Below are positions 15,125 through 18,163 of a stretch of 64,000 nucleotides of DNA, in pieces. The notes below the pieces were generated by a model. The model was not told the origin of the DNA and did not search any database. It saw only the letters and a program-made list of their open reading frames with translations. Location of the stretch: positions 24,001 to 88,000 of the forward strand of contig LDXL01000004.1 in assembly GCA_001443365.1 (NCBI GenBank). The letters run 5' to 3'. A program made the position numbers and the translations under genes. Origin of the DNA: Thaumarchaeota archaeon CSP1-1 (GTDB lineage: Archaea > Thermoproteota > Nitrososphaeria > Nitrososphaerales > Nitrosopumilaceae). Positions within the stretch are counted from its first letter, which is position 1. Each line of letters starts with the position of its first letter.

Positions 15125-15730
15125 ATGAAAACAATGAGAGTATCTTGTGATTCTAAAGGTGTCAATATCGCCATCAGAACTTTTAGGAATGGAGGTATAG
15201 TGGTTTTTCCTACAGATACAGTTTACGGAATTGGTTGTGATCCATATAATAAAAATGCAATAAAATCACTCTATCAAATAAAAAACAGAGACCCTTCAAA
15301 ATTATTTCCCATTTTAGGTTTCTCTAAAAGAGAACTCTCTAAAATAGCCGTTTTTGATGAAATGGCAGATAAGATTTCTGAAAAATTTTGGCCAGGACAA
15401 ATTACCTTAGTATTAAAACTTAAAGATAAAAAATTAAAACAATCTCTTAATCTTGATGAGAAAATAGCTGTAAGAGTTCCTAAGAATCCATGTGCCTTGT
15501 CAATTCTCAAAGAATGCAAATTAATTGTTGGAACTAGTGCAAATATTTCTGGTTCTCAATCATTTAGAGACCCTGAAGAATGTATTAGAAACATCTCAGG
15601 ATATGACTTGTTTGTAGATGGAGGAATAATTTCAAGTAAAGGAGAATCAACTGTAGTAGAAATTAATAATGATCTGAAGGTCTTAAGACCTGGAATTATA
15701 TCAAAAGAGGAGATTATGGACCTGTTTTGA
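15125..15730 (+). CDS. Threonylcarbamoyl-AMP synthase (Sua5/YrdC)
   Basis: Makes threonylcarbamoyl-AMP from threonine, bicarbonate and ATP, the first step of t6A modification at tRNA position 37. FPTDTVYGIGCDP (about residues 29-41) and IKNRDPSKLFPI hold the KxR substrate site; VGTSANISG is the closing motif. At 201 residues only the YrdC domain is present, without the C-terminal Sua5 domain. It overlaps the THUMP protein gene by 4 bases and lies near the Cgi121 fusion of the same pathway. Confidence 0.93.
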   Translation: MKTMRVSCDSKGVNIAIRTFRNGGIVVFPTDTVYGIGCDPYNKNAIKSLYQIKNRDPSKLFPILGFSKRELSKIAVFDEMADKISEKFWPGQITLVLKLKDKKLKQSLNLDEKIAVRVPKNPCALSILKECKLIVGTSANISGSQSFRDPEECIRNISGYDLFVDGGIISSKGESTVVEINNDLKVLRPGIISKEEIMDLF

Positions 15731-16248
15731 ATTTAATTATTACATGCCCACGTCATTTTGAAGAAGAGGCTAGTGAGGAAGTAAAGAGAATTCTTATTGA
15801 GTTAGGAGACCAAGAACCTAAAATTATCATTTCAAACATGCCTGGAATTCTTACTGGCATTACTAGTCTAAATCCAATTGAAGCTATAGAAAAGATTAGA
15901 GAAAAAATTCTCGATGAACCTTGGTCTATTAGATACTGTCTAAGAATAATTCCAATTCAAGGAGTTTGCAAAACTAATATCAAAGAAATAGAAGATGAGA
16001 TTCTAAAGAAAATAGGAGTTATCAAGTCAGAAGATAGCTATAGAATCACTATAGAAAAAAGAAATTCAAAAGTTTCCTCTGACGAAATTATATCAAAAAT
16101 AGCAAAAAATATTTCAAATAAGGTTTCCCTGGATAGCCCAGATTGGGTTATTTTGATTGAAATAATCGGAGATGAGGCAGGAGTTTCAGTTATACGAAAT
16201 AACAATATCCTAAGTGTAGAAAAAACAAAACGTTCTTTATCAGATTAA
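15727..16248 (+). CDS. THUMP-domain RNA-binding protein
   Basis: A 173-residue protein whose C-terminal 100 residues follow the THUMP pattern: WSIRYCLRIIPIQGVCKTN, then KNISNKVSLDSPDWVILIEIIGDEAGVSVI. THUMP domains bind tRNA ends in modification enzymes; alone it resembles Tan1, the partner for N4-acetylcytidine formation. Coupled by a 4-base overlap to the YrdC gene. Confidence 0.8.
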   Translation: MNLIITCPRHFEEEASEEVKRILIELGDQEPKIIISNMPGILTGITSLNPIEAIEKIREKILDEPWSIRYCLRIIPIQGVCKTNIKEIEDEILKKIGVIKSEDSYRITIEKRNSKVSSDEIISKIAKNISNKVSLDSPDWVILIEIIGDEAGVSVIRNNNILSVEKTKRSLSD

Positions 16249-17016
16249 AATTGCTGCTTTTTCTGCAAGCAAGTCTTCTAATTGGGATTTTGAAATTATT
16301 GCATCCATCTGTTTTTTTGTGATGTTAAATTTTTTTTTCAAAAAATTTTGATTATTTTTGGATAGAGGGGTTGTGTTCAGTAATGATTCGATATCTCTGA
16401 ATAATCTGTTAAGTTGTATTTTTTTACCAATTGCAATAATCACAAAATCACCTTCATTCTTTATTCCCACTCGTTTTATCGCATCATTAATTTGAGTAGT
16501 CCCAGCAAATCTCAATAAAATATCTGTCTCAATCTTTTTTGAAAGGATGGTGTTATTTTGTTTGGCCATTAGTGATATCGCAATAATTTTTTGTGCATGT
16601 GATTTACCAAGTATGTAGTTTGATGATATAGCTTGAATTATTATATTTGGAAATTTTAGTCTAAGGTCGTCTAAAAAATCGATGTTTAGTTTTTGATTTG
16701 TTTTGACATCAAATAATTCAATGCATGAATTAGAAATTTTGAATTGAATCCTTTTAGAAGAGCCCCCATGTATTATGGGAATTATGCTAATAACATCCCC
16801 ATTTTTTAAATTAGTTAATGGTCCATCTATTGCTGAAGAATCAATTCCGTTTATTGCGATTAATAGATTATTTACATCGAGTTTGTTGTCGTTTTTAGGT
16901 TTATTCTTGATTAAAAAATCAAGTAGCTGCTGTAAGGTAAGATCATTTTTTTCAATGTCAATATGGTCAGTGGAAAATGATTTTTTTGCTCCGCCCAAAA
17001 ATTTTACTGTGATCAT
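16240..17016 (-). CDS. ThiS/MoaD-like ubiquitin fold fused to KEOPS subunit Cgi121
   Basis: A 258-residue fusion. Residues 1-86 are a beta-grasp domain (MITVKFLGGAKK, then GDVISIIPIIHGG) with the Gly-Gly of sulfur carriers now internal at 84-85. Residues about 88-258 match Cgi121, the KEOPS subunit that guides tRNA in t6A formation; the core ILLRFAGTTQINDAIKRVGIK is characteristic. It converges on the THUMP gene with a 9-base overlap, near the YrdC gene. The fused arrangement is unusual; whether the GG is used in conjugation is unknown. Confidence 0.75.
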   Translation of the reverse strand: MITVKFLGGAKKSFSTDHIDIEKNDLTLQQLLDFLIKNKPKNDNKLDVNNLLIAINGIDSSAIDGPLTNLKNGDVISIIPIIHGGSSKRIQFKISNSCIELFDVKTNQKLNIDFLDDLRLKFPNIIIQAISSNYILGKSHAQKIIAISLMAKQNNTILSKKIETDILLRFAGTTQINDAIKRVGIKNEGDFVIIAIGKKIQLNRLFRDIESLLNTTPLSKNNQNFLKKKFNITKKQMDAIISKSQLEDLLAEKAAILI

Positions 17017-17061: not shown

Positions 17062-17376
17062 CTAAGAAAATTCTTCAGTTTCATCCTGTGATGTTTCTAA
17101 CTCTGGAAGTGTTTTCTCATCATTAGTGGTGATAGGTTGATCATCAGTAGTTGTTTCTTCCTTTTCCATTTGATTTTCTTTTAATAATTGTTCTTCTTTT
17201 TCTCGAATTTCACGCTTTATGAATTTAGTAATATATCCTGCTAATTCATTTTTTAATCCTTTTGAGCGAACTATGGAAATTTCATTTAGAATTTTTTTGT
17301 TTTCAAGAAAATCAATACCAAATTTTTCTTTGTTATCTTCTAGTATTTCCATTGTAATTTTTTTTATTCTATTCAC
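17062..17376 (-). CDS. rps17e: Ribosomal protein eS17
   Basis: The first 62 residues match archaeal S17e: MNRIKKITMEILEDNKEKFG, DFLENKKIL and the helix ending LAGYITKFIKRE. A Glu/Thr-rich tail of about 40 residues extends the usual archaeal length of 60-70 residues. Small-subunit ribosomal component. Confidence 0.88.
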   Translation of the reverse strand: MNRIKKITMEILEDNKEKFGIDFLENKKILNEISIVRSKGLKNELAGYITKFIKREIREKEEQLLKENQMEKEETTTDDQPITTNDEKTLPELETSQDETEEFS

Positions 17377-17407: not shown

Positions 17408-18163
17408 CTATATACCTAGAAAATCGTTTGAATTTTTTTCTAAGATGGCAGAGAATTCATCATATGACTTTCTCAATACTTTTGAGGCACAAAATATTAT
17501 GCTTGGGATAAAACTCACTTGTGCAGGCTTTAATGCGAAACATCTTGAAAATTTTACTGGTCCGTCGGTCTCTACGAGGATTCTATTAATTTCTGTTTTT
17601 GATAACAAAACTTGTTTATCTTTTGCATAAACCAATAGGGGTCCAAATGAGACAAAAAATCCCAAATCCATGGCTTTTGTGAGTTGCTGCTTGCTTCCAT
17701 CAAACCAATGTAAAACCATTCCTCTAAGAGAGTATGAGGGAATAATTTCATAAATTTTGTCAAGAGTTTTTCTAGAATGAATAGAAATTGGTTTTTGTAT
17801 CTTTTCAGCAATTGCTAGTTGACCTCTAAAGAGCTGTTCTTGTCTTTGAAATTCTGATTCTGACGAAACATAGGTAGAATCGAGCCCTATTTCACCAATG
17901 CCTGCAATACCACCAATATTCTGATTAATTAATTCCAGTATAGGTTCTAGTTTTTCATCAGCTTTACCTGGATGGATTCCTACAAAAGGGAAAATTAGTT
18001 CAGTTTTCTTTGAAAGATCTATTGTTTTTTTGGAGGATAGAAGATCTTCGGAAACACAACATGCCTTGATATGCATTTTTTCCATACATTTTATGATATA
18101 TGGAATATCAGAATCATATTCAGGATCAGATAGATGTATGTGTGAATCTAATAACCAGTTCAT
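17408..18163 (-). CDS. tatD: TatD-family metal-dependent hydrolase
   Basis: A 251-residue TIM-barrel metal hydrolase. DSHIHLSDPEY at the N terminus provides the two His ligands, GIGEIGLD the Glu, ISIHSRKTL the next His, LHWFDGS a further His and LVETDGP the final Asp, so the metal site is intact. Proteins of this family act as 3'-5' DNases; activity here is inferred. Confidence 0.92.
   Translation of the reverse strand: MNWLLDSHIHLSDPEYDSDIPYIIKCMEKMHIKACCVSEDLLSSKKTIDLSKKTELIFPFVGIHPGKADEKLEPILELINQNIGGIAGIGEIGLDSTYVSSESEFQRQEQLFRGQLAIAEKIQKPISIHSRKTLDKIYEIIPSYSLRGMVLHWFDGSKQQLTKAMDLGFFVSFGPLLVYAKDKQVLLSKTEINRILVETDGPVKFSRCFALKPAQVSFIPSIIFCASKVLRKSYDEFSAILEKNSNDFLGI

Follow-up and report, generated by a model that had tools for sequence, protein, structure and literature searches.

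Why should a ubiquitin-like (Ubl) domain of the Urm1/ThiS type, which ends in Gly-Gly, be made as one polypeptide with Cgi121, the tRNA-binding subunit of the KEOPS complex? The question is raised by a gene in the 64,000-nucleotide stretch of Thaumarchaeota archaeon CSP1-1 DNA analysed here (the window; Table 1). The architecture itself is already known: the part of Makarova and Koonin (2010; PMC2948915) that deals with the fusion describes the same protein, with the same S17e neighbour, as conserved in all Thaumarchaeota sequenced at that time, and proposes SAMPylation of KEOPS or coordination as its role. Cutting of a precursor is not discussed in those passages, and the later papers found by our literature search did not take the fusion further. 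The first-pass annotation, made from the sequence alone, thus had the architecture right and missed that the apparent oddity was published in 2010. Our work adds a class-wide comparison, the origins of the fusion and the constraint on its His-Gly-Gly (HGG) motif, which together yield a sharp test and a testable reason, namely cutting of a precursor at HGG.

Table 1. Features at and around the Ubl-Cgi121 gene (positions in the window).
Feature	Position	Strand	Basis or remark
Ubl-Cgi121 fusion gene	16240..17016	-	258 aa, ATG start; HMMs and AlphaFold/Foldseek
Urm1/ThiS-type beta-grasp (ubiquitin-like) domain, residues 1-85	16762..17016	-	PF02597, PF09138, Foldseek
HGG motif, residues 83-85	16762..16770	-	where the two domains meet; cut predicted after Gly85
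KEOPS subunit Cgi121, residues about 97-258	16243..16728	-	PF08617, NF011465
Ribosomal protein S17e	17062..17376	-	PF00833, 60.7 bits; directly upstream of fusion gene, 45 bp
TatD-family nuclease	17408..18163	-	PF01026; conserved neighbour, same strand as fusion gene
THUMP-domain protein	15727..16248	+	PF02926; convergent, 9-bp overlap with 3' end of fusion gene
YrdC/TsaC-type L-threonylcarbamoyladenylate synthase (t6A pathway)	15125..15730	+	PF01300, TIGR00057; convergent

The fusion was confirmed as one intact, uninterrupted reading frame, and the identities initially given to its two domains are correct by Pfam, NCBIfam and AlphaFold/Foldseek. The Ubl domain scores 37.7 bits against Pfam ThiS (PF02597, residues 11-85; cut-off 22.5) and 23.0 bits against Urm1 (PF09138, residues 2-85; cut-off 21.8), and the Cgi121 part scores 38 bits against Pfam CGI-121 (PF08617, residues 127-241; cut-off 25) and 122.7 bits against the NCBIfam KEOPS Cgi121 model (NF011465; cut-off 40). 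An AlphaFold model built with 56 homologues (alignment A1; mean pLDDT 89.9, pTM 0.66) was matched by Foldseek to Cgi121 in the solved KEOPS complexes 8up5, 7kjt and 3enh (8up5_C, E 3.6e-8) and also to Urm1/SAMP/MoaD structures, which, with the two Pfam matches, establishes the ThiS/MoaD-type fold of the N-terminal domain. Since a profile of separate Ubl homologues (A2) finds Ta0895 and the eukaryotic and Sulfolobus Urm1 as its best matches, Urm1-like is the best name for this domain. Archaeal (Sulfolobus, 4wwm) and eukaryotic Urm1 share its beta-grasp fold and have HGG at the C-terminus, but those are free proteins, whereas in the frame encoded here HGG (GG being residues 84-85) is internal and a free diglycine end would arise only by cutting; we therefore speak of an Urm1-like domain and not of an Urm1 protein. 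The other half should be functional in KEOPS and keeps three of five CCA-binding residues of Methanocaldococcus jannaschii Cgi121 that were compared: Gln71, Ile72 and Gly80 correspond to the invariant Q175, I176 and G184, the position of Lys56 is K in this protein and mostly N in the other sequences, and that of Met60 is mostly T.

One of the two initial readings of the fusion was a physical coupling of two tRNA-modification pathways. Both domains are intact and their genes show an operon-like association, as would be expected if the uncut protein tied a working sulfur carrier to Cgi121. Sulfur carriers, however, act through a free C-terminal glycine, by a mechanism established for MoaD and ThiS (PMC4326299), and here the functional glycine lies inside the chain, so that the carrier, tied by its active end, could not be adenylated. 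We consider such an arrangement highly improbable, and permanent coupling of the two pathways is without positive evidence.

At the joint between the domains, none of the 65 representatives compared, whose identity averages 54% and falls to 34%, differs at H83, G84 or G85, and HGG is present in all 91 fused sequences of the Nitrosopumilaceae and at all 80 named loci. All four synonymous codons are used for both glycines, so that this conservation reflects selection on the protein and not recent descent. The 11 residues that follow HGG form the most variable stretch (2.21 bits, compared with 1.24 in the Ubl and 1.48 in Cgi121), and the segment next to the motif differs in both sequence and length within the family; invariance of the motif amid such variation supports cutting. 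The residue directly after GG is Ser or Ala at 63 of the 80 named loci, and the junction is thus of the MoaX type, with GG exactly at the joint and a small residue next. In MoaX, in which that residue is Ser, and in MoaD-MoaE (M. tuberculosis, D. radiodurans), a Ubl is likewise joined through an internal Gly-Gly to a functional neighbour; there the partner is MoaE and cutting at the glycine has been demonstrated, whereas here the partner is Cgi121 and the cut site is predicted. MoaX is cut between Gly82 and Ser83, and Gly81 is required for the reaction (PMC4326299). HGG is also the only segment of our model with pLDDT below 50 and looks like an exposed recognition tail; linkers often score low, and the value is therefore supportive only. 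An invariant HGG in a segment that is predicted to be disordered is hard to square with the other initial reading, a recruited domain that does not conjugate.

The same glycines could, against cutting, have been kept for structural reasons, as a hinge. The protein would then be permanently fused, with the Ubl never released, its carrier role lost, and the domain playing a structural or regulatory part in KEOPS, such as that of a docking surface for tRNA or protein. Such a reading draws on the start codons: in 48 of 64 representatives the 25 codons that follow GG contain no ATG in frame, so that Cgi121 is generally not produced alone; an internal start as a source of free Cgi121, available to the remaining 16 of 64, was rejected as a general explanation. 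The NcsA-type thiolases of some methanogens, which are thought to function without a Ubl, also count for it, as does the fact that no standalone ThiS-family Ubl was found in the Nitrosopumilaceae genomes described below. A hinge, however, needs no exact His-Gly-Gly, yet the motif stays constant down to the most divergent representatives while adjacent residues vary, and most separate homologues end exactly in this motif. We regard permanent fusion as rather unlikely.

The closest named match is 71% identical, and the relatives of the protein are Nitrosopumilaceae (Nitrosopumilus, Nitrosarchaeum, Nitrosotalea, Nitrosotenuis and Nitrosopelagicus), in which the fused state is universal among the sequences and loci counted above. 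Cgi121 was found in 272 of 300 genomes of the class, and outside this family the Ubl mostly has an ORF of its own, immediately 5' of Cgi121 and often overlapping it; a split gene therefore occurs in relatives, but never within the family. A2 aligns 16 separate Ubls, of which 11 end exactly in HGG and five carry one to four further residues. Separate Ubls ending in HGG beside Cgi121, in the same gene block, support cutting. The extra residues of the remaining five (MVGV, CI, L, S and GTAF; L037 2032-2355, L039 2162-2443, L053 1143-1430, L057 2050-2334 and L059 2152-2424) would need trimming before activation.

The order TatD-S17e-Ubl-Cgi121, facing THUMP-YrdC, is common to fused and separate forms throughout the class, and an HGG-bearing Ubl lies just upstream at 9 of 30 Cgi121 loci in other classes of the phylum. 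To judge from this shared block and the pairing in other classes, the association of the two genes predates the fusion and is older than the class, and the fusion is derived from two neighbours, the Ubl having had a free HGG end. In the Sulfolobales the Urm1 gene is linked to S17, according to the passages on these genes in PMC2948915. It had been assumed that Urm1/SAMP-like carriers and t6A synthesis are separate elsewhere, which holds for the polypeptides, but not for the genes, which lie side by side in most of the class and also in some other classes. In a tree of Ubl, Cgi121 and S17e, the Nitrosopumilaceae form one fully supported fused clade, and four changes of state are needed, two of them forced by well-supported branches; the tree thus points to at least two and probably about four origins. 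Fused genes outside the Nitrosopumilaceae occur in a single genus of another family (G108 and G131), in G047 and in G271. The last of these, also of another family (L052 688-1611), has the joint LHCS, without GG, and is a possible case of a permanently fused, non-carrier protein. Compared with the few genomes available to Makarova and Koonin (2010), in the part consulted here, the fusion now appears as lineage-specific and assembled from separate neighbours, probably about four times.

The age of the pairing is also compatible with a dual role, in which the uncut protein would be a functional KEOPS subunit while part of it is processed under regulation, tying tRNA thiolation or Ubl modification to KEOPS occupancy, and partial processing is documented for MoaX. 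There is, however, no evidence of shared regulation, and the separate genes of most families show the covalent link to be dispensable; we hold this to be decidedly unlikely. YrdC does lie close by, as had been pointed out, but on the opposite, convergent strand, and is therefore not co-transcribed with the fusion gene. The THUMP/YrdC/Cgi121 region is a compact tRNA-modification block. Throughout the class, and in further classes of the phylum, the THUMP-only protein beside YrdC, possibly Tan1-like, keeps its place facing Cgi121.

If the Ubl is a carrier, it requires an activating enzyme. In 19 well-assembled, E1-bearing genomes of Nitrosopumilaceae (15 of them closed) there are exactly two ThiS-family matches each, one on Cgi121 and the other at the N-terminus of E1, joined through an internal AGG/S wherever the sequence was read; no free-standing ThiS-family protein was found in them by PF02597, a search that a divergent Ubl could escape. 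The E1 retains its ATP-site motifs (GTGGLG, SNLHRQ) and the CxxC (zinc), and since it needs a free Ubl C-terminus, its conservation beside two captive Ubls supports cutting; at the same time, as E1 carries its own Ubl, its activity alone does not require release of the one linked to Cgi121. It may be, at somewhat less than even confidence, that all ThiS-family Ubls of the family are made only as precursors with a GG/S joint, on Cgi121 and on E1, so that the whole Urm1/sulfur-carrier chemistry of these abundant, ammonia-oxidizing marine archaea would need GG-specific proteolysis and Urm1 would be supplied 1:1 with a KEOPS subunit. A Ubl-E1-TBP fusion in Thaumarchaeota is described in the part of PMC2948915 that concerns these fusions. 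At three loci (L127 4104-6684, L129 4621-7175 and L130 5197-7742) the Ubl-E1 gene adjoins that of a threonine-synthase-like PLP enzyme, which suggests a thiocarboxylate-dependent amino-acid pathway.

E1 was not found in the CSP1-1 genome, in which the contig ends at the expected locus, nor in about 50 other genomes. It is present in all single-contig Nitrosopumilaceae listed (roughly two dozen), and its site in relatives follows hisF-hisI-(exported protein)-thrC, the point at which contigs of CSP1-1, G031, G089, G104, G109, G116, G160 and G190 end. A break after hisF/hisI is common to many assemblies of the family (L153 1-438, at the end of G000 contig C3; L154, L156, L157, L158 and L160), so that absence of E1 and its neighbour from draft genomes is unreliable. 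Loss of E1 with HGG retained, which would have favoured an E1-independent role, was rejected because synteny places contig breaks at the locus; in G068 a contig passes the site, but hisI is truncated and the contig may be a chimera.

Candidate proteases are at hand. Both MoaD-MoaE and linear fusions of SAMP1 are substrates of JAMM enzymes (PMC8832034), JAMM proteins are present in all Nitrosopumilaceae searched, and the two encoded by CSP1-1 both have an intact HSH-x7-S-x2-D motif, which supports cutting. They occur in nearly all members of the class, however, and are not specific to genomes with the fused gene; the idea that JAMM marks the fusion was therefore rejected. Likewise, a thiolase of the NcsA/TtuA type is encoded in the genome (its best NCBIfam matches fall under the curated cut-offs), and the NcsA-type PP-loop enzyme (PF01171) was rejected as a discriminator, as matches are present everywhere.

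Taken together, we give roughly even odds to the reading that Ubl-Cgi121 is a precursor cut after HGG, releasing an Urm1-type protein and Cgi121; cutting after GG is the best-supported mechanism that we infer, since on more than one occasion fusion took place exactly at the functional glycine, and HGG has stayed fixed from then on. The proposed course of events is as follows: (i) the Urm1-type Ubl and the tRNA-CCA-binding Cgi121 would be translated together, as the N- and C-terminal halves of one precursor; (ii) a protease, most likely a JAMM enzyme, would cut after Gly85, giving a mature Urm1, whose C-terminal glycine can be activated, and a Cgi121 that joins KEOPS; (iii) the freed Ubl would be adenylated by the E1 of the family, itself made with a second Ubl; and (iv) the activated Ubl would serve sulfur transfer, through the encoded tRNA thiolase, and/or protein modification. 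Being fused, the two proteins would be synthesised in a constant 1:1 ratio, as in MoaD-MoaE and in the ubiquitin-ribosomal protein precursors (UBA52, RPS27A), in which a Ubl is made fused and cut after GG; the partner here is a tRNA-modification subunit, in contrast to those precursors, and the ribosomal gene is merely a neighbour. If the precursor is indeed cut, some of the most abundant archaea would have their own counterpart of MoaX and of the ubiquitin-ribosomal fusions, and a protease step dedicated to Gly-Gly would be indicated in organisms in which no free-standing ThiS-family protein was detected.
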